In this document: in pieces, positions 1-36,758 of the stretch
Layout of the letters: every line of letters begins with the position of its first letter
How positions within the stretch are numbered: the stretch's first letter is position 1
Source of the DNA: a virus
Strand: one strand, 5' to 3'
Length of the DNA stretch: 36,758 nt
IMG/VR virus record: IMGVR_UViG_3300046517_001183
Span: 1-36,758 of that record
The notes under the pieces: generated by a model
Told to the model about the DNA's origin: nothing
The model's input: only the letters and a program-made list of their open reading frames with translations
The model's database searches: none
Program-made: the position numbers and the translations under genes

Positions 1-127
1 GCAATCGCTTGTTTTTGAGGCTTTCCTGCTTCCATTTCTGTGCGGATATTTTCACTCACAGCTTTTTTTGATTTACTTTTCTTAAGTGGCATGTTATAAT
101 CCTTTAAAAATTAATGGGTAATGAATC
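1..127. repeat. Left copy of 127-bp exact terminal repeat
   Basis: These 127 bases are identical to positions 36632-36758. A direct terminal repeat of exactly 127 nt is what a de Bruijn assembler with k=127 leaves on a circular contig, so the molecule was probably circular or circularly permuted. On the minus strand, 1-92 is the 5' part of the DUF6496-like gene that is complete at 36571-36723. Confidence 0.95.
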
Positions 128-11140: not shown

Positions 11141-11156
11141 AGTCACTTAGGTGACT
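11141..11156. repeat. Palindrome at the downstream edge of the HNH cassette
   Basis: AGTCAC-TTAG-GTGACT is a 6-bp inverted repeat overlapping the HNH stop codon. Its right arm is part of AGGTGACT (11149-11156), which recurs directly at 11830-11837 at the other edge of the cassette. The pair may be a target duplication or a trace of the homing site. Confidence 0.55.
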
Positions 11157-15479: not shown

Positions 15480-15494
15480 CTTTAAACCTATAAT

Positions 15495-15896
15495 TTAGAA
15501 TGAGATAGGAACAAATTCGTGCAATTTTTCGTTCTGGCCATCTTTAATAGTAGGCACACCATTAGCATCTAAAAGATCAGATCTTCGCGCCAATCCAGGG
15601 CTTTTATTAACATCATCTACCAGACCCTTGGGGACGTCATATTCATGATTCGGGATAAAATGCCATGTATCAATGGAATCACCAGCATATTTACAATATG
15701 GTTTAGTAAGTCGCTCACCGAGACCTCTATGGTTGATATATCTCGCTTTCACGATCTTGGCATCTTCTTCTTTTTGTTTCAAATATTGTTCTTTATGTTT
15801 TGGATCAATGGACTTGCCTCCATGATCTTTCACACTATTTGCTACGCTGTTAATAAGACCGTGTCTTTCACCGTTTTTTGTTATCATCGCTTTCAT
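15495..15896 (-). CDS. Conserved small virion-cluster protein, 133 aa
   Basis: A basic, probably helical N-terminal half (EQYLKQKEEDAKIVKARYIN) with the motif INHRGLGERLTKPYCKYAGD, then a Pro/Asp-rich tail. Small proteins with an 'hRGxxERLxxPYcxyxGxpI' segment recur next to capsid and adaptor genes of short-tailed phages, but I know no function. The ribosome site overlaps the end of the preceding gene, whose stop is 4 nt away, suggesting coupling. Confidence 0.6.
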   Translation of the reverse strand: MKAMITKNGERHGLINSVANSVKDHGGKSIDPKHKEQYLKQKEEDAKIVKARYINHRGLGERLTKPYCKYAGDSIDTWHFIPNHEYDVPKGLVDDVNKSPGLARRSDLLDANGVPTIKDGQNEKLHEFVPISF

Positions 15897-15899
15897 CTC

Positions 15900-16280
15900 T
15901 CAATTTCCTTGATTATTCAATGATTGGAAAGGCACTTTCGTACAATCATTTGTAATTGTTAAATTCCTAGATCCAGCAGGCGCCATTGTAGCTGGCATTT
16001 CCTGTCCTGTGCCTGGCACCGAGAATACATCAAAATAACTTGAATTGATATCTAAACTGAAAACATTCGAATTTATCGCTATGATTTGTCCTATAAGGCC
16101 ATTTGCTTGCTGCATTCCATAAGATGCAGGAATATTAAGACGGACACATTGTCCGACGATGTATGTATTTTCTACCGTGTCTGTAAATGTCACCTGCATT
16201 GGAGAGTTATTCGTGATAGCAGTGATGACAAGAAACCCAGGTATTACTTTAGTGGGTGGTAGATATATATTAGCGCTCAT
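15900..16280 (-). CDS. Decoration-like virion protein, 126 aa
   Basis: This beta-rich protein is a short paralogue of the C-terminal half of the 349-aa protein upstream. Both contain a segment of the form vG..v.f.iP.SfGM.Q.N.L.G.I.AvN (here VRLNIPASYGMQQANGLIGQ) and a later ATMAPAGS/ATLAPAGS motif. It starts with MSANIYLPPTKVIPGFLVIT, preceded by AGGA. Duplication of a surface domain is likely; it may decorate the capsid or form a head fibre. The gene lies downstream of a hairpin at 16295-16319 that may reduce its expression. Confidence 0.55.
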   Translation of the reverse strand: MSANIYLPPTKVIPGFLVITAITNNSPMQVTFTDTVENTYIVGQCVRLNIPASYGMQQANGLIGQIIAINSNVFSLDINSSYFDVFSVPGTGQEMPATMAPAGSRNLTITNDCTKVPFQSLNNQGN

Positions 16281-17398: not shown

Positions 17399-18355
17399 CT
17401 ATAGTCTTTGTGTTACGTTAAGGCCTGAGATCCAGTTTTGGTTTGTGATCGCACGTGCGATGGCAAACTTAGCATATAACTGGCTGTTTTGTGCAACAGA
17501 AGATACAACATATGGAGGGCGATAACCCAAGATAGCGGTATAATTATTTTGCTCAATTTTTGCGGCAGCTTCTAGACCATACATCGGTATAGTATAAACA
17601 GTCGCACCGCGTAATGAAGCCCCTGGAATTTTGTTCGCTTTGCTAGAAACAAAGAATCTGAATCTAGAAATAGAGCAATATTCTTCTGGGCGTAAACCTT
17701 CTTGTGTTGGATATGCTGATTTTAGCAATACACCCTGTACGTTTTGAAGGTCGGGAGTAATATCAGTAGAAGCAAGAGCAATGAAAGCATCACGAACTCC
17801 AGCTGTACCGAAATTCCGTCCAGCATCTACGCTTTCAAGCATTGTTCTAGCATCATTACCCAATAAAATTCTTTCTATATTGTTTACATCGTTGCGAGTG
17901 ATTTCCGAAGGCTGGTCCCCGTTAACACCTCCTGTAGCGTTGATGTAACTCACTGAGCTAGCGTATAGATCTCTCATTAGAAGATCTTCTTTTTCACGAA
18001 GCCACTGCCCGCAAAGAGCCGTAAATTTCGTTAAGACCTTATCGTTCTCATAGAGAGTGACCTGCTCATTGATAACAACTGTTTTAGCGTAGATTTCCAT
18101 TGTTGCATCTACATCAGTACGAACGACAACTTCTGGAGCTGGATCAATACCAGAACCATCAAGTTGACCGCCGTCTGTACTTAATCTTTCGTATCTTGAC
18201 ATACGAGTAGTTTTACCAATGTTTGACTCTGCATAGTGAAGGTCTGCGCCGAAACTATGAATAAGGTTAAACATTGGCGTGGACAATAGGTCTTCCGAGA
18301 ACTGTAATGGAAGTTCCGGAGCCATATTGTTAATATTGGTTATTCCCTGTGCCAT
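17399..18355 (-). CDS. Major capsid protein, N4-gp56 family
   Basis: The 318-aa protein starts MAQGITNINNMAPELPLQFS and shows the hallmarks of the N4-gp56 family of HK97-fold capsid proteins: an early 'F...LL.......' helix, GADLHYAESNIGKTTRMSRY with the basic E-loop region, VTLYENDKVLTKFTALCGQW and a conserved PEEYCSISRFRFFVSSKANK segment. Length is typical for compact members of the family. It follows the scaffold candidate and DUF551 genes and is separated from them by a structured 133-nt leader with a possible promoter of its own. It will form the icosahedral shell. Confidence 0.85.
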   Translation of the reverse strand: MAQGITNINNMAPELPLQFSEDLLSTPMFNLIHSFGADLHYAESNIGKTTRMSRYERLSTDGGQLDGSGIDPAPEVVVRTDVDATMEIYAKTVVINEQVTLYENDKVLTKFTALCGQWLREKEDLLMRDLYASSVSYINATGGVNGDQPSEITRNDVNNIERILLGNDARTMLESVDAGRNFGTAGVRDAFIALASTDITPDLQNVQGVLLKSAYPTQEGLRPEEYCSISRFRFFVSSKANKIPGASLRGATVYTIPMYGLEAAAKIEQNNYTAILGYRPPYVVSSVAQNSQLYAKFAIARAITNQNWISGLNVTQRL

Positions 18356-18497: not shown

Positions 18498-18716
18498 CGT
18501 TGATTTTTCCTCTTCACGCCATTTGACTACATCAAACATAGGCTCACCAGTTTCAGAGTTTGCCCAATGGTGAGGTTTGTGCCCATAAAATATAAGCCAA
18601 TTATTTTTATCGCTATAAAAATGAGCTTTTGTTATATCCCCATTAGCGGTTTGCACAGTAACTCTTCCGGCAGCGAATCTTTTTGGAAGTCGATCTTTAA
18701 CATCTACCCAGCTCAT
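18489..18716 (-). CDS. DUF551-like protein, 75 aa
   Basis: Begins MSWVDVKDRLPKRFAAGRVT, the W[IV].V.DRLP opening of DUF551, followed by a central 'A.FY.....W' and an ending HHWANSETGEPMFDVVKWRE. DUF551 proteins are small, frequent in phages and of unknown function. Its ATG overlaps the TAA of the scaffold candidate by one base, so it is coupled to that gene and lies inside the capsid cluster, an unusual location. A second DUF551-like gene occurs at 33061-33276. Confidence 0.65.
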   Translation of the reverse strand: MSWVDVKDRLPKRFAAGRVTVQTANGDITKAHFYSDKNNWLIFYGHKPHHWANSETGEPMFDVVKWREEEKSTLQ

Positions 18717-19432
18717 TAAACCATTTTCCTCGCTTTAACCATGCGCTCCCAATTTGCTGCTTTTTTTGCATCATCTAAGTAGTTCGGCGCACTATCTCCA
18801 GTCTGTGTAATACCCGGAATAGACATCGACTGAGGTTTGTTTAGGTTCTGATCGATGCGCTTTTCATCTTTCTTAGAGTTTGGGTTAGGTACTAGTTTTT
18901 TAATAGCTGTGTAGACGGAAGCCCATTTATCGAAGGAGTCTGGCATATATTGAAATGCTTTGGCTATTTCTGGATGATGGAATTCCATATAATCGAGGTT
19001 CTCTTGATTGCAAACGCTTCCAAAATCATTAAAAGTTTGATTTAGTTTCTGAGGAAGATCTTTCATTTCTTGTTTCATTCGCTCTTCTTTTTGTCTAGCA
19101 TCGCGCGCCTGGAGGATATTCTCGAGCTTTCTTTCTAGAAGTTTGTCTTCATTTTCTTCTTCATATTGGTTTTCATAATGTGTTTGCATTGAACTTGGCT
19201 TATTAAGCACTGAGTCAAGGGCCGCCTTGAGAGCTTCGGCTTCGGTGGCGGCTTTAGCTGCTCTTTCTTCAGCCTCTTTTCTTCTTGCTTCAGATTCCGC
19301 GCGATCTTGTCTGAATTTGCGCCAATTTATCTGCTCTGCGGTTTCCTCTTGTGGCACGGCTTCTGTTTTTTCTGGCTCAACTTGTGTTTTTTCTGCTACA
19401 TTTGTATTTTCAATAACTTTTTCTTCTGACAT
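18716..19432 (-). CDS. Putative capsid scaffolding protein, 238 aa
   Basis: Starting at the ATG 19430-19432 the protein opens MSEEKVIENTNVAEKTQVEP, is acidic and Gln/Glu-rich, has a coiled-coil region at about residues 40-140 (RAESEARRKEAEERAAKAAT) and a basic C-terminus ending ANWERMVKARKMV. Acidic coiled-coil proteins with a basic helix at the end, placed just before the major capsid gene, are the usual scaffold of P22-like and N4-gp56 phages. A longer in-frame extension upstream is antisense to the 19442 gene and lacks a ribosome site, so I reject it. Confidence 0.7.
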   Translation of the reverse strand: MSEEKVIENTNVAEKTQVEPEKTEAVPQEETAEQINWRKFRQDRAESEARRKEAEERAAKAATEAEALKAALDSVLNKPSSMQTHYENQYEEENEDKLLERKLENILQARDARQKEERMKQEMKDLPQKLNQTFNDFGSVCNQENLDYMEFHHPEIAKAFQYMPDSFDKWASVYTAIKKLVPNPNSKKDEKRIDQNLNKPQSMSIPGITQTGDSAPNYLDDAKKAANWERMVKARKMV

Positions 19433-19441
19433 AGGTTCCTC

Positions 19442-19762
19442 ATGAATGATGATATTAAAGACTCTGAAACTGTTAAATTTGATGATACAACACTCCAAGA
19501 GGAAGTGCAAAAGTATTTTACTTCTAAACGCTTTAACGAAGATTTATTTCATTATCGTGATTTAATGAGCGTGATTCAAACTGACGTGCCATTGAGTGCT
19601 ATATGTCTGCCAAAAAAGTTAGAAAACATGCTAATTAAACAAGGGTTCAATCGCATCAGTGATTTTAGGGGGATTAATCTTGCTGAAATCGAAGGCCTCG
19701 GTAATACCTGGAGGCATCTCCTTTGCGCCCGCCTGGATGAGTTCTTCACGGTGGGTATTTAG
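19442..19762 (+). CDS. RNA polymerase alpha-CTD-like protein, 106 aa, antisense in capsid operon
   Basis: Residues ~50-101 (PLSAICLPKKLENMLIKQGF, RISDFRGINLAEIEGLGNTW, RHLLCARLDEFF) follow the helix-hairpin-helix pattern of the C-terminal domain of the RNA polymerase alpha subunit: 'L....LKxxgI.tI.DL....L..I.GLG.k....I...L'. Residues 1-48 are an acidic helical segment. It begins 9 bp from the divergent scaffold gene and its last 132 bases overlap the 3' end of the 19631-20263 gene on the opposite strand. The ribosome site is weak (TAGG). If expressed it could mimic the promoter-contacting domain of host polymerase and steer transcription; other HhH DNA-binding roles are possible. Whole setting suggests regulation by antisense too. 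Confidence 0.6.
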   Translation: MNDDIKDSETVKFDDTTLQEEVQKYFTSKRFNEDLFHYRDLMSVIQTDVPLSAICLPKKLENMLIKQGFNRISDFRGINLAEIEGLGNTWRHLLCARLDEFFTVGI

Positions 19763-20263
19763 ATATTCTATTTCTGAAAGCATATTTATTTCATGCTGCT
19801 TTCGTATGAATTCCCAAAACTTGCCATCATAGAAAGCTTCAGCCCATTCTTTCATAGTCTGATATTGTTTAGGAACATTTACGGTTTGATATAAACGCTC
19901 CATAGTCCAGGCTTGAGGGTTACCGGAGAAAGCGGCAGGCAGTATCCATAACCGTTTAGTGAAAGCAGCCAAGGTCTTATTATAAAGGAATACTGCCTGC
20001 TCCGGGCGAGGAGAGGGAAGGTAAAGCATTGCGAAAAACTTTCTTCGCATGATCCCTTTGATTAAGGGGTCAGAAGTGATAACAAATCCAACACAAAATT
20101 CATCTTCATCGAAGATTTTACTGTGATGTATTGCGCATTCATATAGATTCTTTTCGATAGAGCCATCATCGGCAAGATGTTGTCCTATTTCACGAGCATT
20201 ATATTTAGTCTGGTCGGAGGCTGCCTCGAGTGTAAGCGCCCCCGCCGTCTTTCTTTTTTTCAT
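19631..20263 (-). CDS. Conserved-looking phage protein, 210 aa
   Basis: The start at 20263 overlaps the preceding stop (TGATG). The protein is mixed alpha/beta with FCVGFVITSDPLIKGIMRRK, FFAMLYLPSPRPEQAVFLYN and an aromatic-rich WEFIRKQHEINMLSEIEYLN region, ending in a Pro/Ile-rich tail (INPPKITDAIEPLFN). It lies between the portal-side small genes and the scaffold, in the main late operon. I do not recognise a family; a capsid-maturation or packaging-related role is possible from its place. Its last 44 codons are antisense to the alpha-CTD-like gene. Confidence 0.6.
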   Translation of the reverse strand: MKKRKTAGALTLEAASDQTKYNAREIGQHLADDGSIEKNLYECAIHHSKIFDEDEFCVGFVITSDPLIKGIMRRKFFAMLYLPSPRPEQAVFLYNKTLAAFTKRLWILPAAFSGNPQAWTMERLYQTVNVPKQYQTMKEWAEAFYDGKFWEFIRKQHEINMLSEIEYLNTHREELIQAGAKEMPPGITEAFDFSKINPPKITDAIEPLFN

Positions 20264-20478
20264 CAATGATCTGTCGAATTAACTTTATTATGCATTGTTG
20301 GACGATCTTTAGCACATTTAGGATCAAAAGCATGTAAAGGATCGGGCTTCTGGTCCCCTTTTGACACGCTATATCTTATTTCCCAATGTTTTTTAGGCGT
20401 TGAAGATCCCTTTCCTGGAACTGAAGCGTCAGGTCCATGATTATCATGATGCTTTTGATAGCTTGGGCTTTTAGACAT
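20263..20478 (-). CDS. Small KKHWE-motif protein, 71 aa
   Basis: Hydrophilic, His/Lys/Pro-rich protein with little predicted structure (MSKSPSYQKHHDNHGPDASV). It contains PKKHWEIRYSVSK, which aligns with PKEHWEVDHNVLE in the next gene upstream; the two are probably diverged duplicates. Coupled by overlap to the following 210-aa gene. Function unknown. Confidence 0.55.
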   Translation of the reverse strand: MSKSPSYQKHHDNHGPDASVPGKGSSTPKKHWEIRYSVSKGDQKPDPLHAFDPKCAKDRPTMHNKVNSTDH

Positions 20479-20479
20479 A

Positions 20480-20665
20480 TTAGTACTTCATTCTATGGGT
20501 TTCAACATATTTGACTAATTCATTGTTAGCTTTTGTAAGCTCTTCAGGATTGTCCATTGAATCTTTGCCAGCATATTTAGCTTTGCAAACTTCTAGAACA
20601 TTATGATCCACTTCCCAATGTTCTTTAGGCATGTGAACGGATTTCATTCCTTTTTCTTTTTTCAT
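20480..20665 (-). CDS. Small KEHWE-motif protein, 61 aa
   Basis: I start it at the ATG 20663-20665 because GGAG lies seven bases upstream; a TTG four bases further is also possible. The product is charged and helical (NPEELTKANNELVKYVETHR) after the motif MPKEHWEVDHNVLE, shared with the neighbouring 71-aa protein and, as MAKEHWIKNAIKKPG, with the protein at 36392-36571. Located directly after the portal gene. No function is known to me. Confidence 0.55.
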   Translation of the reverse strand: MKKEKGMKSVHMPKEHWEVDHNVLEVCKAKYAGKDSMDNPEELTKANNELVKYVETHRMKY

Positions 20666-20667
20666 TT

Positions 20668-22698
20668 TCAAACTCCTGTTTGACTTGGTTGATTTTCTAA
20701 ACGACTAGCTTCTTTTCGCTGTTGTGCGAAGTCAAAAGCTTTTTTAATTTGATTGAATTGCACATCTTCCATTTCCATCGCAAGTTTAACGAGATTGTAG
20801 TCAGATTCGATTTCTTTATGTTCTGATGTTGCATGGATTTCTTCTACCCTGGCCATTTTCTCTTGTGCCGAAGCCATTAATTCTTGTTCTCGTGCTAGAT
20901 CTGCTCTAGACTTGGCATATTCTACCATCATTTTAGATTGATCTTTCTGCGCTTCGGATTGAGCTTGTGCTTGCTGTTGCTGCATTTGTTGTTGTTGTTC
21001 TTCTTCCATATTAGCAATGACTTGCTTTTTGTTGGTAATGAATGCAGCGCCGAGAATATCTTTGTTTGAGATAGGAAGTCCGATCTCTTTGAAGTAAAGA
21101 AGCTGTTGAAGCTCTGTTTGTCTCTGTGTTGCTGAGTAATTACCTTCTTCAACTTGAACAGAATACTTCAAGGATTTCGACGAGAAGAAACCGGGAGACG
21201 GTTCCCGGCCAAGAATCTGTGCAACTTTTCCTTTGCTAAAGTTTTTACGGATAGCTTCTAATCTTATTTTGCCGTAGATTCTTTGTGTATAGTCTGATTT
21301 ATCAAAAATAGTTTGAAGTGTTGTAAGGCCCGCTCCTTGGCGAAGCATGGAGAGGATGCCCGCTTTATCATCTGTTGCAGAACCTAGCAATTCTTCGTTG
21401 ACTCCACTAATCTTCATGATATCTTCTGACAAGATACGAGATAACTCCAACATAGACATTGGGATATCAGGCGCTGTTATCCGTTGAATTTCATTGGGAA
21501 GGCGTCCTGCTTTAAGTGGCACAAGGAACCCTTGTCCTGACTGTCTGAAAGCTTTAGGATCAACAACAGCATCAATTGGATAGATCCAGCCTGAATTGAT
21601 CTGAGACTGAAGTATATCCATCTCAATCACTTTGCGCATGTTATAGCAGTATTGCACATCACGTAATGCTCTGACTACACCCTGAATTCTCCATTGATAG
21701 GATTGAATATCAGGTTCATGGTAGCAAAGGTGCGGTGCGAATGGATACATGTCGATATTAAGAAGGTTAGGGCCGTGATAGACAACCTTATTTCCAATCA
21801 ATATACCAAGTTTTACAGTTGGTATCTCCATGTCCTTAACTTTAAGCCAAGGCTGCATACGTAACACTTGCTCTAATTCGTCCTCTATTTCTTCCTCTTG
21901 ATCTTCTTCCCATTCCATGCTTTCGCCTGTCTTTGGATCGATGATCATTTTAGCTGTACGTGTTGTTCTATAGTAAAATTCATCAAAGGCAAATAGTCTA
22001 TTTGTATCGAGATTGATTAACTCTGCCTGAAGAGGAAATCTACCATCTTTTGCTCCCGATGGAGAGAGTTTATCAATGAATTCACTTTTGCCCGGTAGTA
22101 AAGCTTTGGCCGCGTTTTTATTCACCCAACGACGGCGCCAAATGAATCCACAATCTGTAAGATCCATCTTGCGGAAATAGGGATCAATTAGAATGTTATT
22201 ATAGCTTACTTGATCAGTGAAAAGATCGCCGGATACAGGATCGAGTGTATAATCCGGGTACATATGTAACATGTTAAGTCCAACATCAACACCACCGGCA
22301 AAAGACTGACTAAAATACTCTTGGAAACCATCACGATTTTCACACCACTTCAAAACTGAATTATAATCATCACAGAGTGCATCCTCTTGATGCAGTGGCA
22401 TTGTGATAGTCGACTTGCGATTACGCCTCTGGAAGCCTTCTATCATGTTTGTTTGACGTCGGATGAGATTAAAGAAGAATCTCCGTGATTGGAAATATTG
22501 GTTATCTCCGTAAATCATAGACCAAAGAGATTGGTCTCCAGCTTTAAACCTTTTATCTATACTTCCTTGCTGCCAAAAAGCGGCATTAGCAGGATATGAT
22601 GACGTATAATAATGAGCCATCATCTGCTTAAGATTCTTAGAGTCAACATCCGTATCTTCTACGTAGAACCCACTACCTTCGCTGTCGTATGAACCCAT
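20668..22698 (-). CDS. Portal protein, P22-like
   Basis: At 676 aa it has the size of P22 gp1-type portals. Recognisable parts are an N-terminal 'YY.......W' region, RRFFFNLIRRQTNMIEGFQR, the clip/stem portion YQWRIQGVVRALRDVQYCYN and IMKISGVNEELLGSATDDKA, and a C-terminal barrel helix that is Gln- and Glu-rich (about residues 565-650; EEEQQQQMQQQQAQAQSEAQ). Twelve copies form the vertex through which DNA enters and leaves. It follows terminase, from which it is separated by an HNH endonuclease cassette. Confidence 0.85.
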   Translation of the reverse strand: MGSYDSEGSGFYVEDTDVDSKNLKQMMAHYYTSSYPANAAFWQQGSIDKRFKAGDQSLWSMIYGDNQYFQSRRFFFNLIRRQTNMIEGFQRRNRKSTITMPLHQEDALCDDYNSVLKWCENRDGFQEYFSQSFAGGVDVGLNMLHMYPDYTLDPVSGDLFTDQVSYNNILIDPYFRKMDLTDCGFIWRRRWVNKNAAKALLPGKSEFIDKLSPSGAKDGRFPLQAELINLDTNRLFAFDEFYYRTTRTAKMIIDPKTGESMEWEEDQEEEIEDELEQVLRMQPWLKVKDMEIPTVKLGILIGNKVVYHGPNLLNIDMYPFAPHLCYHEPDIQSYQWRIQGVVRALRDVQYCYNMRKVIEMDILQSQINSGWIYPIDAVVDPKAFRQSGQGFLVPLKAGRLPNEIQRITAPDIPMSMLELSRILSEDIMKISGVNEELLGSATDDKAGILSMLRQGAGLTTLQTIFDKSDYTQRIYGKIRLEAIRKNFSKGKVAQILGREPSPGFFSSKSLKYSVQVEEGNYSATQRQTELQQLLYFKEIGLPISNKDILGAAFITNKKQVIANMEEEQQQQMQQQQAQAQSEAQKDQSKMMVEYAKSRADLAREQELMASAQEKMARVEEIHATSEHKEIESDYNLVKLAMEMEDVQFNQIKKAFDFAQQRKEASRLENQPSQTGV

Positions 22699-22743: not shown

Positions 22744-23343
22744 TTACGACAAAGAAATATCTTTGGTCACGGTGTACCCATATGACTCAATAAATTCTTT
22801 CGCCCAAGCAATCTTATCCTCTACTCTTTGGCCAGCAGGTTGTCCTTTGTGCCACAATTCAAGATTTTCAATCCGATTGTCATTTCTAATTCCATTTTTA
22901 TGGTGAACAGATTCATCTTTTCGTATAGATCTTCCAAGATGCTGGCTCATTACATATGTATGTTCTGCGATTCTTCCTGTTTTACTTGTACAGTTCGGAT
23001 GGCCTAATTTAGTCATTTGGAAATATCCATTTTTATCAAGATGACCATCCCCATTTTTCCTTTTCATCAAAGGGGCTTCGGGATCTTGACCCCTGCATTT
23101 TCTTCTAGATTTAAATTTAGCTATCCGTTTTTTTTCCTTGTAAATAGGATCTCTACCCTCTAACATCTTAATATAACATGTTTTACACAATCTGTGAGTT
23201 TTATTAGCTATATAAACATTTGTTCTTTTACAAGAAGAACAATTTATTCCTAAAGTTTTTTCGAATCTTTTTTTTTCCGCACATGTATGACAAAAATATC
23301 CGGGATAATTAAATTCTTTGAAACAATGTTTGCATGATTTCAC
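22744..23343 (-). CDS. HNH homing endonuclease, 199 aa
   Basis: I use the GTG at 23343 (VKSCKHCFKEFNYPGYFCHT) because GAGG precedes it at the proper distance; the longer frame starts inside the operator palindrome. Four zinc-type Cys pairs fill the first ~65 residues. Residues ~130-175 carry the HNH core: RIAEHTYVMSQHLGRSIRKD, ESVHHKNGIRNDNRIENLEL, W. This subclass is different from the 11147-11773 enzyme. The cassette lies between large terminase and portal, both apparently intact, and has its own promoter and a palindrome over the start site. Confidence 0.85.
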   Translation of the reverse strand: MKSCKHCFKEFNYPGYFCHTCAEKKRFEKTLGINCSSCKRTNVYIANKTHRLCKTCYIKMLEGRDPIYKEKKRIAKFKSRRKCRGQDPEAPLMKRKNGDGHLDKNGYFQMTKLGHPNCTSKTGRIAEHTYVMSQHLGRSIRKDESVHHKNGIRNDNRIENLELWHKGQPAGQRVEDKIAWAKEFIESYGYTVTKDISLS

Positions 23344-23354
23344 ATAAACCTCAC

Positions 23355-23370
23355 TGTATACAAGTATACA
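23355..23370. promoter_or_regulatory. Operator-like palindrome at the HNH start site
   Basis: TGTATAC-AA-GTATACA is a perfect 7-bp inverted repeat with a 2-bp centre. It lies just downstream of the -10 box, covering the expected transcription start, which is a typical repressor position. It suggests autoregulation of the endonuclease or control by the host or phage. Confidence 0.6.
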
Positions 23371-23371
23371 C

Positions 23372-23400
23372 ATTATACATACACTCCAAGTTGAAGTCTA
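23372..23400 (-). promoter_or_regulatory. Promoter of the second HNH gene
   Basis: On the minus strand TAGACT (23395-23400) and a perfect TATAAT (23372-23377) are 17 bp apart. The -35 overlaps the stop codon of the large terminase gene. Confidence 0.6.
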
Positions 23401-24675
23401 GAAATATCCTCCGTAACCTTGGTGAATTCCCAACATTTCCTCACCTCCATATACTTTTCTGCGAAGTTGTTCAATTGAAAGATTTTCATCGGGGTGTGAA
23501 AATTCTCCTCTCGGAAAAGCGCTATGGACACAATAGCGAAGTGCATCAACGATATGATCCTGAACCTTAAGGGGTTTGTCTTCCCCTCGATCAGCGGCTT
23601 TTGGATCCCATGCATAGCTTTGTATGTGATCGATCAAAGTTCGACATCCTTTTTGGATGACGATATTTTTGTTAGATATGAAGCGTCCGACAGTTTTAAT
23701 CCCTGGCAATACATCATTCTTTGCATCAATAACCGGTAGGTCAATTTGTTGCATAGCCACTTTGAGCGACGCCGCCGCTGGATCGACATAAATTGCTCTA
23801 ACATTACGGTGTCCCACAAACTCTTTGATGTCTTGGGCCAATTCATCATCTGCTTTTGATCTGCCCTTAACTGCCGAATCATAGTAATATTCTTCTTCAA
23901 CAGTAAGTTGCGGCCATTGGTTTGGCCTAACGCCGACCAGAACGGCTGCTGTTGCATTTGTCGTACCATAATCTACACCAACTATGTAATAAAGAGGGTT
24001 ACAAAAAGGGTGCTCATATTCATTGTTAAAGTCGTAAGTGTCGTAAACTAAACCATGGGCCGCCGCCCATTGTCCTAGCACATACCTTTTATACCACATT
24101 CCTGTATAGCTTGCTTTTATTCGTTCTTTATACTCTTTGTCAAGAGAAGGATTGTCATCTAATGTGAAATTCCAATATTTCAATTTAAGAACCTCAGCTC
24201 TATCTATATATTCTTTTTTAAGCCAATGTGCTGGGCCTTCTGGATTGCAGGTCGCAAGTAATTGAGATTTGGGAACAGATAGTCGACTGATTAACATACG
24301 CCAGAATGGGGCAGGAATACACGTTGCTTCATCGATATATGCGAAAGCGAGCGTGCTCCCTTGGATTCTACGTACGGCCGACTCATCAGACGCACCGACG
24401 AAGTAAACATTGCGTCCATATAGTTTTGTCTCCGTTGTTTTTGATGGGGGAAGACCGAATCCTAAGAATCGGAATAATTCGGTTAAAATATTCCTCTGGA
24501 TGCTATCTCGAGTTACTCCGATCAGCATGCAATCGCCAGGAGGTCCATTCTTAAGCAGATCTATAAGTTTGAAAATGCTGCTGAAAGTCTTGCCTGAGCG
24601 TACTGCGCCAATCCAAATACAAAAAGGGGCGTCAGCTTGTTGGAAGCTCATCAACTGTTTCTGACTGAGTTCCAT
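23398..24675 (-). CDS. terL: Large terminase subunit (TerL)
   Basis: A 425-aa PBSX-type packaging motor. Walker A is GAVRSGKT (residues 23-30), Walker B LAFAYIDEA (109-117), and ATCNPEGP (141-148) is the coupling motif. The RNase H-like nuclease domain starts at GVDYGTTNATAAVLVG (Asp235) and continues with AIYVDPAAAS (Asp298) and the final DHIVDALRY (about 373-381). All catalytic positions are present. The N-terminus overlaps the small terminase gene by 44 nt, in a frame typical for coupled translation. Cuts concatemeric DNA and pumps it through the portal. Confidence 0.9.
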   Translation of the reverse strand: MELSQKQLMSFQQADAPFCIWIGAVRSGKTFSSIFKLIDLLKNGPPGDCMLIGVTRDSIQRNILTELFRFLGFGLPPSKTTETKLYGRNVYFVGASDESAVRRIQGSTLAFAYIDEATCIPAPFWRMLISRLSVPKSQLLATCNPEGPAHWLKKEYIDRAEVLKLKYWNFTLDDNPSLDKEYKERIKASYTGMWYKRYVLGQWAAAHGLVYDTYDFNNEYEHPFCNPLYYIVGVDYGTTNATAAVLVGVRPNQWPQLTVEEEYYYDSAVKGRSKADDELAQDIKEFVGHRNVRAIYVDPAAASLKVAMQQIDLPVIDAKNDVLPGIKTVGRFISNKNIVIQKGCRTLIDHIQSYAWDPKAADRGEDKPLKVQDHIVDALRYCVHSAFPRGEFSHPDENLSIEQLRRKVYGGEEMLGIHQGYGGYF

Positions 24676-25129
24676 TGTCTAAATTTTCCACTTGTATTAT
24701 GTTTTCGGGTGCTTTTGCTTGGGTAATAAGGTTATCTAATTTGTCGTCATTTGGTGGTTTTTCTTTGATAGGCTCTGGCTCTCTTTGCCCTAACCGCACC
24801 TTCCCGAGCCATATTAGCATTTGCGCGTTACCCTTCGCTTGGCTATTAAGTGACTTCTGGTGCTGGCTAAGAAGCAAATGTGCCTCTCCTTTAGGAGCGT
24901 GAAGAGACGCATAATTGGTGTATGTCATGGCATATTTTTCGACCACCCGATCATAAAAAGTATGAGGATGTAGACCAAAATGAGAAGAGATTTGAACGCC
25001 ATTACATCCTGCCTCAAGGAATTTGTCTACAAGGTCCCAGTCTATTGGCTTTTCAGGGCGCCCCATTTTCTTCAATTCTTCCGGATCAACACCAAGTCTT
25101 TCAAACTTTTTTCGTGCCTTTTTTCGCAT
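24632..25129 (-). CDS. terS: Putative small terminase subunit
   Basis: The 165-aa protein has a basic N-terminus, then DWDLVDKFLEAGCNGVQISS and HFGLHPHTFYDRVVEKYAMT, a helix-turn-helix of the kind that recognises the packaging site, a central helical oligomerisation part, and a disordered acidic tail. Its end overlaps the large subunit's start by 44 nt. Identification is by this pairing and the DNA-binding motif. Confidence 0.75.
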   Translation of the reverse strand: MRKKARKKFERLGVDPEELKKMGRPEKPIDWDLVDKFLEAGCNGVQISSHFGLHPHTFYDRVVEKYAMTYTNYASLHAPKGEAHLLLSQHQKSLNSQAKGNAQMLIWLGKVRLGQREPEPIKEKPPNDDKLDNLITQAKAPENIIQVENLDNGTQSETVDELPTS

Positions 25130-25132
25130 GAT

Positions 25133-25330
25133 TTACTTTTTCTTTTTCTTCATCATTTTATCGCATTTTTCAATCTTTGGATCGCGGATATCGCGATCGA
25201 TCTTTACGAGTTTTTCATTTTTCTTTTCGGCGTGTTTAAGTTTTTTTTCAGCATCTTTTGATTTACCATGCTTAAGAGATTTCACTGCAGATTTCATTTC
25301 TTCAGTTACTTTATGCATTTTCTTGTCCAT
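25133..25330 (-). CDS. Small Lys-rich helical protein, 65 aa
   Basis: Lys/Glu-rich throughout (MDKKMHKVTEEMKSAVKSLK), likely one or two helices ending in a run of Lys. ATG overlaps the previous TAA by one base and the gene precedes the small terminase by 3 nt, so it is in the operon. It could be a DNA-binding or nucleoid-like accessory protein; no family recognised. Confidence 0.5.
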   Translation of the reverse strand: MDKKMHKVTEEMKSAVKSLKHGKSKDAEKKLKHAEKKNEKLVKIDRDIRDPKIEKCDKMMKKKKK

Positions 25331-25839
25331 TATCTTTTTCCTTTTTTCTTCTTAACTTTCTGCCCGCAAGCGTCGCATTTTTCATCGTCGCATTTGTCTT
25401 CGTCTGCTGGGGATTCATCGGCCTCGTCGAAACATCCATCGATGTCATCCATCGTAAAACCCCACTCCAGCAGATCGGGGATATCGAACTCATTAGCTAG
25501 AATGTCGTAATCAAATTTTCCTGTATTCCGGTTCAATCTGATGCAGAGCTCATCACAATCTTCCTGTGTCATCTCCTCAAATGGCGTCCAGCATTCGATC
25601 TCTTTGATCTTTGCCTTTTTCAGCAGCTTGAGCCGCTGATGGCCACCGATGATCTGACCATTTTTATTTACAATTGGCCGCTCGATAATACCAAATTTGT
25701 CCATGCTCTTGGTAAGCTGTGCCATATCATGCTTGGAAAGCTGCCTGGGATTCTTGGGATTCTCATGGAGATCTTTGACTTTCCAGTTTTGGAGAAACCA
25801 CCTTTCATTAGACTGTGACCATCCTTCAGTTTTAGTCAT
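25330..25839 (-). CDS. ParB/sulfiredoxin-fold protein
   Basis: Residues ~18-100 carry the ParB N-terminal fold: VKDLHENPKNPRQLSKHDMA, then a central 'Q...G..RPIVNKNG', IIGGHQRLKLLKKAKIKEIE with the GxHRR-like phosphate loop (here GGHQR), and DELCIRLNRNTGKFDYDILA. The C-terminus is acidic with a Cys4-like pattern (CDDEKCDACG) and a basic tail. Phage versions near terminase often act as nucleases or DNA-modification helpers; some are CTP-binding partition proteins. No helix-turn-helix follows, so plasmid-type partition is less likely. Confidence 0.75.
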   Translation of the reverse strand: MTKTEGWSQSNERWFLQNWKVKDLHENPKNPRQLSKHDMAQLTKSMDKFGIIERPIVNKNGQIIGGHQRLKLLKKAKIKEIECWTPFEEMTQEDCDELCIRLNRNTGKFDYDILANEFDIPDLLEWGFTMDDIDGCFDEADESPADEDKCDDEKCDACGQKVKKKKGKR

Positions 25840-28161: not shown

Positions 28162-28356
28162 TTAGTTCAATGGAATATCGTGGAATTCTTCACATGACCA
28201 GCATTTATAAGTCTTGGCGTTGGCGTCGAGTTTGTACATGCTTGAATTCTCATTTACAGCGCAATAGAGCACGCGCCAGCAGATTTGCCCATCGGAAGTC
28301 GTCTGGCTTGCCTTAAGCGCGCTATCGCGATCTATGTAAGTTTCTGGATTATTCAT
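28162..28356 (-). CDS. Hypothetical 64-aa protein
   Basis: Hydrophilic, with ICWRVLYCAVNENSSMYKLD and a terminal CWSC pair that may bind zinc. It follows the membrane protein gene with an 8-nt overlap of the end and start. The segment DRDSALKASQTTSDGQICWR resembles small phage proteins of unknown role. Confidence 0.5.
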   Translation of the reverse strand: MNNPETYIDRDSALKASQTTSDGQICWRVLYCAVNENSSMYKLDANAKTYKCWSCEEFHDIPLN

Positions 28357-28543
28357 CTTTGTGTATAAGCTCCGGCGGCATGATGTTTTTCAATATCATG
28401 ATTGTCTTGATTATAGCCACGTCTTTCTCTATCTGTCCAAAACGAACGTCAACAGAGTTAAATTTTCCATTCATCCAAAGAACGCTGCTTATTACAGCCC
28501 CCAGAATTATCACAGTATCCACGTGTTTTTTTATTATTTCCAT
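28349..28543 (-). CDS. Small single-TM membrane protein, 64 aa
   Basis: One hydrophobic segment at residues ~9-24 (VDTVIILGAVISSVLWM), then a short coiled-coil-like part (FGQIEKDVAIIKTIMILKNI). Downstream of the best promoter in the genome (28563-28591), with a good ribosome site (AAGG). Plan similar to the plus-strand protein at 34932-35192. A holin, antiholin or exclusion role is possible; not provable here. Confidence 0.5.
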   Translation of the reverse strand: MEIIKKHVDTVIILGAVISSVLWMNGKFNSVDVRFGQIEKDVAIIKTIMILKNIMPPELIHKDE

Positions 28544-28913: not shown

Positions 28914-28943
28914 ATTATAACACGTTACGCTGCTTGCCTGCAA
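28914..28943 (-). promoter_or_regulatory. Probable promoter for the 88-aa gene
   Basis: Perfect TATAAT (28914-28919) with TTGCAG (28938-28943) 18 bp upstream on the minus strand, overlapping the last codons of the replication initiator gene. Confidence 0.55.
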
Positions 28944-29782
28944 CCTTTTAGTTTCCCAATGAAAGCTCTAACAAGCTTTTCAAAATCAATTTGATCAATT
29001 GTGTACTTTTCTAAACATACGCCACCTCTGATAAATTCCACGTACTCATTTCCAAGATCAACGCGAGTATTAGAGAGTGATCTCCCATCTATTTTTTTAT
29101 TTCTTAGATCCTCAAGAAAATTCATGTTCTTGCTGATGATGTCTTCTTTTTTGGGTTTATCTTTCCACTCTTCGGGATGGTTGAGTAAATGATAAAGCGT
29201 TGCTTCAATAGTCACTACATTTGCAATGGTCTTCAAGCGCTCAATGGCAAGATCCACTTGGGCTTCTGAATATTTTTTTGAAATTTTAACTTTGAATGGT
29301 TCGGCAACCTCTAAATCTTTAAGAGATAAAAAAACAACAACCGGCGAAGCCGCCTTCCCTTCTTGTTGTTGTTCTTCTAGAACAACTTCTTTATTTTTAG
29401 TATTATGTTTTAATGATTGGTGGGCATTTTTGTCCGCCCCCCCCGGACATTTTTGTCCGCCTCTTTGGACATTTTTGTCCGCCCTAAAATTATTTTGAAT
29501 TATGAATATTTTCCTCTTTGTTTTTCCGTTTTCTACAAATTCATTTCTTTTAATGAATCCCTCGTATTCCAGCTCATTAAGCCATCGTCTAATGGTTCGG
29601 TCGTTGACTTCGTAAAGGTTTGCAAAATATTCATTGGATGCCCAGCAATACCCCTCTTTTTCGCAAAGTGACGTTATTTCGGCATAGAGGAGTTTTGCGT
29701 TAGCGCACAACTTATTACAATAGCGTACGTTAGCGGGAATAACTGCATAAAAACTGGGCTTGATTTGATTGTCTTGAGACAT
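28925..29782 (-). CDS. Replication initiator-like winged-helix protein, 285 aa
   Basis: Residues ~10-95 form a HTH_36-type winged helix: YAVIPANVRYCNKLCANAKL, LYAEITSLCEKEGYCWASNE, YFANLYEVNDRTIRRWLNEL, EYEGFIKRNEF. A Gly/Gln/Lys linker (~96-150) contains the iteron-coded stretch, and a C-terminal helical domain (ISKKYSEAQVDLAIERLKTI) may bind a helicase or loader. This is the plan of phage replication initiators such as lambda O or of plasmid Rep proteins, with the origin inside the gene. Ribosome site AAGGAG. A G8 tract (29437-29444) in the linker could slip. Confidence 0.7.
   Translation of the reverse strand: MSQDNQIKPSFYAVIPANVRYCNKLCANAKLLYAEITSLCEKEGYCWASNEYFANLYEVNDRTIRRWLNELEYEGFIKRNEFVENGKTKRKIFIIQNNFRADKNVQRGGQKCPGGADKNAHQSLKHNTKNKEVVLEEQQQEGKAASPVVVFLSLKDLEVAEPFKVKISKKYSEAQVDLAIERLKTIANVVTIEATLYHLLNHPEEWKDKPKKEDIISKNMNFLEDLRNKKIDGRSLSNTRVDLGNEYVEFIRGGVCLEKYTIDQIDFEKLVRAFIGKLKGCRQAA
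29422..29483. repeat. Three 17-bp iterons, putative replication origin
   Basis: Copies of GGACATTTTTGTCCGCC lie at 29422-29438 (one mismatch), 29445-29461 and 29467-29483, start-to-start distances 23 and 22 bp, about two helical turns. Each contains GGACA-TTTT-TGTCC, an inverted repeat. An AT-rich stretch (29484-29530) follows as a possible unwinding element. The array lies inside the linker-coding part of the initiator gene, as in lambda O. Confidence 0.75.
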
Positions 29783-31107: not shown

Positions 31108-32127
31108 CTAAAACATCCTAAGTTTTTTAGTCACATTGTCTTCGATCGCGCGTTTGTCGTAATATGATATCATATTTAGGCCTGTGTGTCCAGTGACGAT
31201 CATCATATCTAGGGGATCTGTTCCTTGGCGAAGCGCCTCAGTAACCCATGTAGCACGCAGCATGTGGGGGTGGACGTGTTGAATTCCGGCATTCGAAGCA
31301 GCAAGCTTGAAGGCGTCACCTACAGCTGTCCGTCCTAGCTTTTTTTTGAACTTAGACACAAAAACCCATCGGTTATGATCCCGGTAATTTTCTGTGGCGT
31401 CTATGTATGCTTTTAGTTCAAACAAGAACTCGGGCGGGAATGAAACAGGAATCATCTTAAGAGTGCCGCTTGTTTTGAGTTGCGTAAAATTTATTGTGTT
31501 TTTTTCGTAGTCTATATCCGTAGTTTTTATATTCAGAACCTCCGAAACTCTCTTTGCTCCCTGAAACAAACAGCGAGCGATTAGAGACTCGCGGTGGCTG
31601 ATGTTTCTGAGCTCAAATATGAATTTAGCCCATTCTTGTCGCGAAAGGGCTTCTGTTGCTGCTTTTTCTCTTGGCTTGACGAATGTTGCACCAACCCCGC
31701 GCTTTGCTATGGCTATGCGTGTTTTACCGTGTGTGCGGCGACTAAGGAATCTTGTAAATGAAATAAAAACTTTTGCGCGGGTTTGCCTAACATTTTCCGT
31801 CCAGCCTTCGTATGCCTTGATCTTATCAACAATTAATTCTAAATTAACTGAAGCAAATCGATCAATCGTATGGTTTGGAAAAAACCCCCTGTCAATAAGA
31901 TTATTCATGTAGTAGTAATAGGCGCGAGAGGTGGTTTTCCCTAGAGATTTTAGCCACTCGTCGATGTAATCCCAGACAAAAAGTCCAAAGGTTCCCGTGG
32001 CAATAATCTCGCAATCGTCATGGGCGTGGGAGCTTAAAACTGCTGTTGGTTCGGACACGACAGGGCTGCCGCCTCCAGTTACAATTGTTCTTGTAGACTG
32101 ATTATTTATGTTTCCGATGTATGTCAT
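31108..32127 (-). CDS. int: Tyrosine recombinase (integrase), chlamydial plasmid-like
   Basis: From the ATG at 32127 (339 aa) the core-binding domain occupies ~50-135 and the catalytic domain ~155-339. Catalytic residues: Arg193 (QGAKRVSEVL), Lys218, His288 and Arg291 (HPHMLRAT), His314 (VTGHTG) and Tyr322/323 (SYYDKR). RAKVFISFTRFL, LSRQEWAKF and RWVFVSKF match, in order, segments I remember from chlamydial plasmid integrases pGP7/pGP8 (ISFTKFL, SKQEW, RVFVSK, LRA). The longer frame to 32202 would pass through its promoter. Expected to integrate and excise the circle; a host attachment site was not found. Confidence 0.85.
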   Translation of the reverse strand: MTYIGNINNQSTRTIVTGGGSPVVSEPTAVLSSHAHDDCEIIATGTFGLFVWDYIDEWLKSLGKTTSRAYYYYMNNLIDRGFFPNHTIDRFASVNLELIVDKIKAYEGWTENVRQTRAKVFISFTRFLSRRTHGKTRIAIAKRGVGATFVKPREKAATEALSRQEWAKFIFELRNISHRESLIARCLFQGAKRVSEVLNIKTTDIDYEKNTINFTQLKTSGTLKMIPVSFPPEFLFELKAYIDATENYRDHNRWVFVSKFKKKLGRTAVGDAFKLAASNAGIQHVHPHMLRATWVTEALRQGTDPLDMMIVTGHTGLNMISYYDKRAIEDNVTKKLRMF

Positions 32128-32199: not shown

Positions 32200-32219
32200 C
32201 ACTTTAGATTACTCTAAAG
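32181..32219. promoter_or_regulatory. Two adjacent operator-like inverted repeats at the integrase promoter
   Basis: AAAGTGTTT-7-AAACACTTT (32181-32205) is a perfect 9-bp dyad covering the -35; CTTTAGA-TTAC-TCTAAAG (32202-32219) is a perfect 7-bp dyad just upstream. They are probable binding sites for a repressor or an excisionase-like protein. The rest of the gap to 32406 is AT-rich with a TTGACA-17-TAACGT promoter-like sequence (32310-32338) for the next plus gene. Confidence 0.65.
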
Positions 32220-33499: not shown

Positions 33500-33730
33500 T
33501 TAATCCTCATAGACTTTTACATGTTTCAGGGTTACTTTCAGCGCCGTACATAGATTGTCGACCACTTCCTCGTGTTGATGTGGATGATATATATTGAAGA
33601 TGATTTTTGCTATACAAATCATGAGAATATCTAGCCATTCATCTTCATCTTCGTAAAGTTTTGAAAGCTCTAAAATGATCTGTGTTGCAACGTCATTGTC
33701 ATCAAAATAATCGTCAGGAGATTTTTTCAT
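33500..33730 (-). CDS. Hypothetical 76-aa protein, coupled to the HTH gene
   Basis: I start at ATG 33730, which overlaps the TGA of the HTH gene (ATGA). Product: MKKSPDDYFDDNDVATQIIL ... HHPHQHEE-like, acidic and helical with a His-rich turn (YHPHQHEE). Tight coupling to a regulator suggests a partner or antagonist. Unknown. Confidence 0.55.
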   Translation of the reverse strand: MKKSPDDYFDDNDVATQIILELSKLYEDEDEWLDILMICIAKIIFNIYHPHQHEEVVDNLCTALKVTLKHVKVYED

Positions 33731-33918
33731 TTTAATTTCAATATCTCCACTGCCTTCACTTTTCCTTCGCAAAAGGCTTCTATCTTTCTTGCTAATTGTA
33801 ACGAGGGAATTCTTCTTTCGTTAATGATTGTATTGAAATAGCTTCTAGAGATTCCCAACTTTTTCGCCACTTTTACAGCAGACAATCCTTTGTCTTCTAA
33901 ATAATCTTTTATCTTCAT
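33727..33918 (-). CDS. Cro/CI-type HTH regulator, 63 aa
   Basis: From ATG 33918 (GAGG upstream): MKIKDYLEDKGLSAVKVAKK, LGISRSYFNTIINERRIPSL, the HTH_3 fold with recognition helix SRSYFNTIIN. Too short to carry a cleavage or dimer domain, so Cro- or HigA-like rather than CI-like. It is the first gene of the early minus operon, divergent from the recombination operon, and should bind the dyads at 33941-34010. Confidence 0.75.
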   Translation of the reverse strand: MKIKDYLEDKGLSAVKVAKKLGISRSYFNTIINERRIPSLQLARKIEAFCEGKVKAVEILKLK

Positions 33919-33940
33919 GTGTACCTCTTTTCTTGAATTT

Positions 33941-34010
33941 ATGTTAACATGTCGGTTAATTAATGTACACGAAAATATCAATCGTTTTGATTGACTTAAA
34001 TTAAACGATT
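33941..34010. promoter_or_regulatory. Operators in the divergent early control region
   Basis: ATGTTAACAT (33941-33950) is a perfect palindrome. AATCGTTT (33980-33987) and AAACGATT (34003-34010) form an inverted repeat around the plus promoter's -35, with TCAATC/GATTGA nested in it. Typical arrangement for control by a Cro-like protein. Confidence 0.6.
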
Positions 34011-34019
34011 TGATAAGAT
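33991..34019 (+). promoter_or_regulatory. Promoter of the recombination operon
   Basis: TTGACT (33991-33996), 17 bp, TAAGAT (34014-34019), 33 bp before the 91-aa gene. Overlapped by the dyads above. Confidence 0.7.
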
Positions 34020-34052
34020 TTAAGCACAACAACAAACGCTCAGGAGATTATC

Positions 34053-34328
34053 ATGAGAAAACATTTAGAATATCTGAAAACAGATGATTGCGAATATTAT
34101 ATATCTGATAAAATGGCTCTAGATATATGTATGCACGATATGAAAACCTACTTCAACGAAATCATAAACGTATTATTGGGCAACAAAAAAATGAGCGATG
34201 ATGATCTTTTTTTCTGCGTGGATAAAGTCAGTTATCACTTGGGATTATCTATCCCAGAAAACGCACGATTTGCCATAGCATTTAGTGACGTGAAAAATGA
34301 TTGCGTTATTGACAAAGAGGTGTGGTAA
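34053..34328 (+). CDS. Hypothetical 91-aa protein, first in the recombination operon
   Basis: Charged N-terminus (MRKHLEYLKTDDCEYYISDK) then CMHDMKTYFNEIINVLLGNK. AGGAG ribosome site. TAATG overlap with the ERF gene. Position suggests a helper of recombination or a host-nuclease inhibitor; no family recognised. Confidence 0.6.
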   Translation: MRKHLEYLKTDDCEYYISDKMALDICMHDMKTYFNEIINVLLGNKKMSDDDLFFCVDKVSYHLGLSIPENARFAIAFSDVKNDCVIDKEVW

Positions 34329-34930
34329 TGGATTTGCATTCAACAGAAATTTCAGAGATCGCAAAAGCTCTTTCAAAGGTTCAATCCGTTCTTGAGGGTG
34401 CCTCTAAAAGCTCGGTAAATCCGCATTTTAAGTCAAAGTATTCAGATCTAAGATCTATATGGGACTCTCTAAGAGACATCCTTCCTGAAAATGGACTATC
34501 TGTAACGCAGATTATGAGTCCGATTGATGGTAGAGATTACATGATAACCATGCTCATGCACACTTCTGGGCAGTGGATTAAGTCTGTGCTTCCGTTAATG
34601 ATAGAGAAGGTTACTAGCCAGGGCCTGGGATCGGCGATTAGTTACAGTAGGCGATATGCGCTAGCTGCTATCGTGGGAGTATATCAAGAAGATGATGACG
34701 GTAATGCTGCTACATTCATTTCAAGGAAGCAGGTTGCTGAGCTTGTGTCGCTGCTAAAAGGTCATTCGGAGATACATTCTCATCTAATGACACAACTTGC
34801 TAAAACCAACACCCTCGCATTAGATAAAATTCAAGTAGATGATTATGAGAAAATTTATGCAATGGTAGATGGTTGGGTGAAAAAGAAAACAGAAAAATTA
34901 GAGGAAAATAAAGACGAAGGAGAACAATAA
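34328..34930 (+). CDS. erf: ERF-type single-strand annealing protein
   Basis: The 200-aa protein shows the ERF family pattern: IAKALSKVQSVLEGASKSSV, NPHFKSKYSDLRSIWDSLRD, ILPENGLSVTQIM, and GSAISYSRRYALAAIVGVYQ followed by EDDDGN. It anneals complementary single strands, pairing with the exonuclease at 35189. Start ATG 34328 follows GAGGTG; a GTG two codons earlier is possible. C-terminus is a charged helix. Confidence 0.85.
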   Translation: MDLHSTEISEIAKALSKVQSVLEGASKSSVNPHFKSKYSDLRSIWDSLRDILPENGLSVTQIMSPIDGRDYMITMLMHTSGQWIKSVLPLMIEKVTSQGLGSAISYSRRYALAAIVGVYQEDDDGNAATFISRKQVAELVSLLKGHSEIHSHLMTQLAKTNTLALDKIQVDDYEKIYAMVDGWVKKKTEKLEENKDEGEQ

Positions 34931-34931
34931 A

Positions 34932-35192
34932 ATGGATTCAGCACAGATTTTAACCGTGTTTGCTGTTGTTGCAGCAAATCTTGGCACCGTCATTACATTA
35001 TATATTCAGACAGACAACAAAATTGAAGCTAATAGAAAAGAGGTTACGTCGGTAATCGAATCTAATAGAAAAGAAACAACAGCAATGATTAATGCAATAA
35101 GAGAAGATATCCGGGATTTTCACGGAAAACTTGAACGTCAAGATGCAGAATTCAAGGCCCACATAATTCACAATCACCAGAAGTCTCAATGA
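34932..35192 (+). CDS. Small membrane-anchored coiled-coil protein, 86 aa
   Basis: One membrane segment (residues ~5-24, AQILTVFAVVAANLGTVITL), then a coiled coil (IEANRKEVTSVIESNRKETT, IREDIRDFHGKLERQDAEFK). Layout like the 28349-28543 protein. It lies between ERF and exonuclease genes; its end overlaps the next start by 4 nt. Function unknown; could tie recombination to the membrane or be an exclusion factor. Confidence 0.55.
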   Translation: MDSAQILTVFAVVAANLGTVITLYIQTDNKIEANRKEVTSVIESNRKETTAMINAIREDIRDFHGKLERQDAEFKAHIIHNHQKSQ

Positions 35193-35809
35193 AAAAGATT
35201 AGCCTACAGCAAGGAAGCGACCTTTGGCTGGAATTCAGGCGCACCCGAATTGGTGCGTCTGATCTTCCTATCATTGTAGGAGAAAGCCCATATATGACAG
35301 TTCAATCTCTCTGGGAAGAAAAGTTATTGTTTAGATCGCCTCAGATTATGAGTTACTACATGCAACGCGGTGTTGATCTAGAATCAACAGCAAGAGGTCT
35401 AATTTGCGATGTAATGGGCTATCCGTTCGATCCATGCGTGATTCAGCATGACAAGGTCGACTATCTGATAGCCAGCTTAGATGGCCTTAATGAAGATGCT
35501 GGCGTTATCTGTGAAATCAAATGCCCAGGAATGAAGACACATCTCATGGCTATCAATGGAGAAATCCCCGCCCATTATCAATGGCAGATAGAACATCAAT
35601 TTCTCGTTTCTGGCTTAAAAGATTGCCTTTACGTATCTTATAATCCAGATCACACAGAAAAACCTTTGATTATAATTGAACGATCCGTAAACTTAGAGCT
35701 ACACAATTTCATTTTAGAGAAAACTAAAGAGTTCTGGGAGTGTCTGCAGTCCATCACACCGCCCCCCAAAAAAGAACGCAAAAACAAAAAAAGGGAAACA
35801 GAGGGTTAA
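35189..35809 (+). CDS. YqaJ-type exonuclease
   Basis: A 206-aa RecB-like nuclease: QQGSDLWLEFRRTRIGASDL, PIIVGESPYMTVQSLWEEK, RGVDLESTAR, the catalytic ASLDGL and CEIKCP (Asp, Glu-x-Lys), and HYQWQIEHQFLVSGLKDCLY. Digests one strand of duplex ends so the ERF protein can anneal. ATGA overlap with the preceding gene. Basic C-terminus. Confidence 0.85.
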   Translation: MKKISLQQGSDLWLEFRRTRIGASDLPIIVGESPYMTVQSLWEEKLLFRSPQIMSYYMQRGVDLESTARGLICDVMGYPFDPCVIQHDKVDYLIASLDGLNEDAGVICEIKCPGMKTHLMAINGEIPAHYQWQIEHQFLVSGLKDCLYVSYNPDHTEKPLIIIERSVNLELHNFILEKTKEFWECLQSITPPPKKERKNKKRETEG

Positions 35810-36571: not shown

Positions 36572-36723
36572 TATTTCTTTCCTTTTTTAGGAATATGTGC
36601 CCCTGATTTTCGCGCAACATTCAAGGCAATGGCAATCGCTTGTTTTTGAGGCTTTCCTGCTTCCATTTCTGTGCGGATATTTTCACTCACAGCTTTTTTT
36701 GATTTACTTTTCTTAAGTGGCAT
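36571..36723 (-). CDS. DUF6496-like small protein, 50 aa
   Basis: MPLKKSKSKKAVSENIRTEM, EAGKPQKQAIAIALNVARKS: the pattern kgKskk.is.Ni...m.aGkPqkQAiAIAl..a.k of DUF6496, common and uncharacterised in phages. AAAGGAT ribosome site. The gene lies across the terminal repeat (also seen as a 5' fragment at 1-92). Confidence 0.75.
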   Translation of the reverse strand: MPLKKSKSKKAVSENIRTEMEAGKPQKQAIAIALNVARKSGAHIPKKGKK

Positions 36724-36758
36724 GTTATAATCCTTTAAAAATTAATGGGTAATGAATC
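36632..36758. repeat. Right copy of 127-bp exact terminal repeat
   Basis: Identical to 1-127; see the left copy. Counting it once gives 36,631 bp. Confidence 0.95.

Follow-up and report, generated by a model that had tools for sequence, protein, structure and literature searches.

The virus record considered here encodes an integrase in which the first-pass annotation saw segments of the chlamydial plasmid proteins pGP7 and pGP8, and so raises the question of whether tailed temperate phages infect chlamydiae. The question matters since Chlamydiota are an obligate intracellular phylum in which hardly any work has been done on the ecology of phages or on transduction. To our knowledge, the cultured, well-known chlamydial phages are all Microviridae. 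The annotation's statement that only Microviridae are well known is thus right for cultured phages, but tailed-phage gene sets had already been reported on chlamydial plasmids, that of Criblamydia sequanensis being placed in a 'phage group' (PMC7846284). The same survey (Koestlbacher et al. 2021) found the Pgp7/8 family to be exclusive to chlamydiae and inferred a phage donor for pgp7/8 (PMC7846284). A Hi-C study of soil includes Chlamydiae among phage hosts and, in the text available, does not name phage genes (PMC10667309). Apart from the phage genes of plasmids, papers describing tailed chlamydial phages were not found.

The window (the whole stretch of DNA analysed, 36,758 nucleotides) represents an entire phage genome, which is circular; the phage itself is uncultured. 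The two ends of the IMG/VR virus record are an exact direct repeat of 127 bp, which makes it a closed circle of 36,631 bp. Most genes lie on the minus strand (Table 1). A long tail region runs down to base 300, and the early region comprises a DnaD-like initiator, the integrase and a helix-turn-helix (HTH) repressor, this last facing a plus-strand operon of ERF and YqaJ-exonuclease genes. Neither tRNA genes nor Rfam families were found in the window. As first annotated, an endolysin is lacking among the window proteins scanned, part of the small ORFs lying outside that scan. Between 300 and 6735 lie genes for several putative tail-fibre proteins of low complexity and rich in repeats (491, 329 and 895 amino acids), the first two sharing a nearly identical N-terminal stretch, and two HNH endonuclease genes (11147-11773 and 22744-23373), present in some relatives only, lie within the head/tail cluster.

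Table 1. Positions of features in the window and, in the last row, of a tail-fibre domain found elsewhere.
Feature	Position	Strand	Remarks
Terminal direct repeat	1..127	.	identical to 36632-36758
Large conserved tail-region protein, 848 aa	11825..14371	-	52-65% in group relatives; present in G323, G327, G332, G333
N4-gp56 family major capsid protein	17399..18355	-	phrog_1357; TIGR04387 91 bits
Conserved gene flanked by those for portal and capsid; position alone suggests a scaffold	18716..19510	-	common to at least 77 relatives
P22-like portal protein	20668..22698	-	PF16510 E 5e-59
Terminase large subunit (TerL), PBSX-like	23398..24675	-	PF03237, PF04466, phrog_2
Probable terminase small subunit (TerS)	24632..25129	-	35% over 94 aa, TerS-like gene of Criblamydia plasmid phage module
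ParB-like / DNA-methylase N-terminal domain protein	25330..25839	-	34% over 145 aa, Criblamydia plasmid methylase
Small protein, weak holin/anti-holin match	28349..28543	-	phrog_10340 E 0.008
DnaD/O-like replication initiation protein	28925..29782	-	PF13730, phrog_19658, phrog_270
Pgp7/8-type tyrosine recombinase (integrase), 339 aa	31108..32127	-	alternative GTG start at 32202
Helix-turn-helix repressor, divergent from recombination operon; putative lysogeny switch	33727..34035	-	PF01381, phrog_35
ERF single-strand annealing protein	34322..34930	+	PF04404, phrog_2324
YqaJ/RecE-like exonuclease	35189..35809	+	PF09588, phrog_434
Tail-fibre domain (outside the window)	L093 23011-23712 and 46848-47513; L092 11568-12443		also L120, L106, L111, L150, L165

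The integrase frame, opening with an ATG at 32127, would be lengthened to 364 amino acids by the GTG start. Its product is an intact tyrosine recombinase (PF00589, E 3.9e-21; phrog_1, E 4.8e-30), all six catalytic residues being present by alignment (R193, K218, H288, R291, H314 and Y323). Its likeness to chlamydial plasmid integrases, judged by database comparison, is far above chance. Among 72,556 plasmids the nine top records are all chlamydial (E 3e-49 to 1e-22), headed by Simkania (3e-49), Criblamydia (9e-45) and Waddlia (2e-39), then two from Rhabdochlamydia and four from Chlamydiifrater. These proteins are 27-38% identical to the window integrase over about 85% of its length, roughly residues 50-338, and score 109-180 bits with the single window sequence as query over residues 50-338. 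The plasmid matches that follow have E values of about 1e-9 or weaker, most covering the catalytic half only (the first of them, at about 2e-9, spans half the length), and 50,697 phage records yield just four weak, partial matches. For comparison, the best integrase score in 295 control genomes, all of the phylum to which a metagenome-assembled genome (MAG) titled Nitrospiraceae belongs, is 43 bits, confined to the catalytic domain; a profile search of 58 further control genomes gives at best 71 bits, again in the catalytic domain. The resemblance first noted is thus borne out, and the segments first likened to pGP7/pGP8 correspond to conserved blocks of the alignment (FISFTRFL, QEW, RVSE, WVFVSK and LRA).

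Viral contigs scanned with the single integrase sequence gave no match; a profile built from the window and chlamydial integrases found 14 viral contigs bearing an integrase of this type. In a maximum-likelihood tree with plasmids, phages and one control phylum as outgroups, 21 sequences (the window, 13 viral and 7 from chlamydial plasmids) lie behind one branch with 100/100 support, recovered in two trees, and the clade so defined contains only chlamydial plasmid Pgp7/8 and viral-contig integrases. Chlamydia pgp7 and pgp8 themselves were left out of the tree, Chlamydiifrater standing in for them. Near-full-length clade members score 380-499 bits against the clade profile, partly by construction because the profile was built from them, and the best of everything else scores 81 bits. 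By tree and profile, then, the window integrase is assigned to the Pgp7/8 clade. The family is further defined by carriage on a chlamydial plasmid or chromosome; the window is instead a phage circle, and its integrase is therefore to be regarded as a phage member of the clade rather than as a plasmid Pgp7/8.

Within the clade, the window integrase falls into a phage-only subclade (99/100) with L144-L147, nested among the Chlamydiifrater, Rhabdochlamydia and Waddlia/Criblamydia/Simkania lineages; the tree does not resolve the earliest splits in the clade. A single clade of chlamydial plasmid integrases is rejected (p-AU about 1e-73), and since these enzymes are not monophyletic, several transfers between phages and plasmids are indicated.

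Five of the 14 viral contigs (L144/G321, L146/G323, L150/G327, L155/G332 and L156/G333) also encode homologues of the window portal and/or other head/tail proteins, and one of them, G332, is likewise a closed circle. This repetition bears on the suspicion that a chlamydial integrase was joined by assembly error to an unrelated phage. The nearest structural relatives of the window do lack the integrase gene, as such a chimera would have it, but independent records unite clade integrases with homologous portals, so the linkage is not an accident of assembly; with the exact repeat that closes the record and the continuous gene order and strand, this renders a chimera extremely improbable. The G332 capsid gene (20168-21588; L166 1046-2466) is apparently split in two frames, with matches at 20258-20554 and 21040-21582, perhaps owing to an intron or insertion.

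The P22-like portal and N4-gp56 capsid named by the first-pass annotation both stand, scoring above curated cut-offs (PF16510, 201 bits against 26; TIGR04387, 91 bits against 60). Structural homologues of the window are very common in environmental viromes, with 258 matches in IMG/VR for the capsid and at least 588 for the portal. Two such relatives, G410 (L250 949-1995) and G002 (L016 8262-9068), have different tyrosine-recombinase genes near the capsid, directly after the scaffold-like gene. That of G410 is unrelated to the window integrase and that of G002 is decayed; the latter (L105), on a long branch and missing the last catalytic residues, was taken out of the final tree.

Sequence comparison and phylogeny, the kind of check originally proposed, place the integrase in the Pgp7/8 clade. 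The named relatives of portal, capsid and TerL are distant and belong to many different phyla. To proteins of proteobacterial phages the portal shows about 22% identity, a close named relative of the capsid was not found, and neither protein has a match among the plasmids. TerL was rejected as a host marker, its named matches lying at 35-40% identity in phages of many phyla; TerL of the G331 type is 46-48% identical to proteobacterial phage proteins. When genome contigs were scanned with the capsid, three relatives appeared on MAG contigs labelled Bacteroidetes, Deltaproteobacteria and Nitrospiraceae, which were rejected as host evidence since they are short, bear phage genes and look like mis-binned phage pieces. 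Portal, capsid and TerL carry no phylum signal, and neither support nor refute a chlamydial host.

A member of the clade is also carried by the Criblamydia sequanensis plasmid (NZ_LK031773.1), which its gene content shows to be a real tailed phage element of chlamydiae. Between 64 and 87 kb this plasmid encodes a DUF1073 portal, minor head protein, DUF2184 capsid, DUF3383 sheath, baseplate and spike, and between 20 and 27 kb an integrase, TerL, TerS, methylase and DUF1064 protein. Its methylase, TerS, TerL and, where covered, DUF1064 proteins are 84-94% identical to those of viral contigs L148, L149, L151 and L157, the corresponding integrases being 62-79% identical. Among the genes of G326, the fullest of these Criblamydia-like contigs, are those for a DUF3383 sheath, a major capsid protein and a Mu-F-like minor head protein; this last (L160 12343-14178) has an intein-splicing match just below the cut-off (PF14890, 35 bits). 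The 89.5-kb Criblamydia plasmid (L169/L093/L170) looks like a phage-plasmid, for besides a complete contractile-tail structural module it has genes for ParA, DnaB and integrase and operons that confer resistance to heavy metals and arsenic. DnaB, ParA and integrase are usual neighbours on chlamydial plasmids, and viral contigs G329 and G331 unite all three with TerL. In the viral-labelled G331 (L154) there is, besides a Tn3 transposase, a gene for an F-box protein (15262-16137), of a kind typical of bacteria living inside eukaryotic cells. Since chlamydial plasmids carry the clade, and tailed phages of two head types do too, plasmids and phages must have exchanged it more than once.

A C-terminal tail-fibre domain without a Pfam family is common to the Criblamydia and Rhabdochlamydia plasmids and to G003, G005, G016, G327 and G332, and is absent from the window itself. 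It was dropped as a chlamydia-specific marker when a profile search turned it up in 4 of 245 control genomes, and lends support at most.

As to the host, the Pgp7/8 family is otherwise reported only from chlamydiae and their plasmids, and environmental chlamydiae are therefore the probable hosts of the window phage. This attribution is the best supported and is likely, based on the integrase clade and, more weakly, on the TerS and ParB/methylase links to the Criblamydia module. Integrases do, however, move between elements, and one gene is weak evidence of host. The phage might infect another soil or freshwater bacterium, possibly another amoeba-associated one, having acquired its integrase by recombination; the clade would then be a phage clade of which chlamydiae are merely the best-sequenced carriers. 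Consistent with this, a recognisable Pgp7/8-type integrase is absent from all 65 closer portal/capsid relatives searched, G410 having one of another kind, capsid relatives occur in MAG contigs of three other phyla, and the phage donor of pgp7/8 inferred earlier (PMC7846284) need not be chlamydial. Yet 72,556 plasmids, 50,697 phages and 353 control genomes of two other groups contain not a single non-chlamydial carrier of the clade, and it is borne by at least five phage lineages that differ in their heads, one with packaging genes nearly identical to those of Criblamydia, all of which makes a host outside the Chlamydiota rather unlikely. We consider it probable that the window represents an uncultured temperate phage, probably with a short tail, that infects environmental Chlamydiota and has a Pgp7/8-family integrase. 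The first-pass proposal of a tailed temperate chlamydial phage accordingly survives in part: the clade of the integrase is confirmed, the temperate reading is reasonable, and a chlamydial host is likely rather than proven. More doubtful is the wider proposition that the whole P22-portal/N4-gp56 group infects environmental Chlamydiota, comprising abundant, mostly lytic tailed phages that were the source of the plasmid Pgp7/8 integrase.

The window encodes both an integrase and an HTH repressor, and the phage is probably temperate, lysogeny and chromosomal integration being inferred. In the cycle we propose, the phage DNA would circularise in the cell, the repressor would silence the lytic genes, and the integrase would use Tyr323, in an active site completed by Arg, Lys and His, to cut the attachment sites of phage and host and join them. 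Once the phage is induced, its DNA would be replicated by ERF/YqaJ and the DnaD-like initiator, and TerS and TerL would package it through the P22-like portal into the N4-gp56 capsid. Alternatively, the integrase could serve to resolve multimers or to keep the phage as a circular phage-plasmid, a role that Pgp7/8 may have on chlamydial plasmids. The clade is found mostly on plasmids and plasmid-like elements, of which G329, G331 and the Criblamydia plasmid, with their ParA and DnaB, resemble phage-plasmids, and a tRNA-like attP core was not found in the window, where matches are no more than expected by chance. However, besides the phage-type DnaD protein no ParA or plasmid replication initiator is recognised in the window, which does have a repressor and phage recombination genes, and an integration target other than a tRNA gene is possible. 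We regard such a maintenance role as a minority possibility, and favour chromosomal integration.

What is new here is the existence of phage genomes carrying the Pgp7/8 integrase clade, and of a second head type, tailed-phage genes in chlamydiae being already known. So far, the widespread integrase of chlamydial plasmids has been traced back no further than to 'some phage'; complete genomes of phages with the clade offer concrete donor candidates, and its distribution shows repeated exchange between phages and chlamydial plasmids. The results point to tailed phages of environmental chlamydiae.

Comparison with known systems sets the window apart from each. The Chlamydiaphages (Microviridae, Gokushovirinae; e.g. 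phiCPG1) also infect chlamydiae, but are tiny ssDNA phages unrelated to the window. With the IMG/VR P22-portal/N4-gp56 group it shares the capsid (82-93%), portal (60-79%) and order of head/tail genes, but differs from the 65 members searched in having a Pgp7/8-type integrase. With the Pgp7/Pgp8 proteins of chlamydial plasmids (OG0000907 / ENOG4106VZX) the integrase shares its clade, full-length alignment across core-binding and catalytic domains, catalytic residues and clade-specific motifs, whereas its setting is a circular tailed-phage genome without recognised plasmid genes and its identity to them over the alignment is 26-36%. Finally, the Criblamydia plasmid module has an integrase of the same clade and, beside its packaging genes, TerS and ParB/methylase genes to whose products those of the window are distantly related; its DUF1073 portal, DUF2184 capsid and DUF3383 contractile sheath contrast with the P22-like portal and N4-gp56 capsid of the window, in which no sheath was found and TerL is of a different type.
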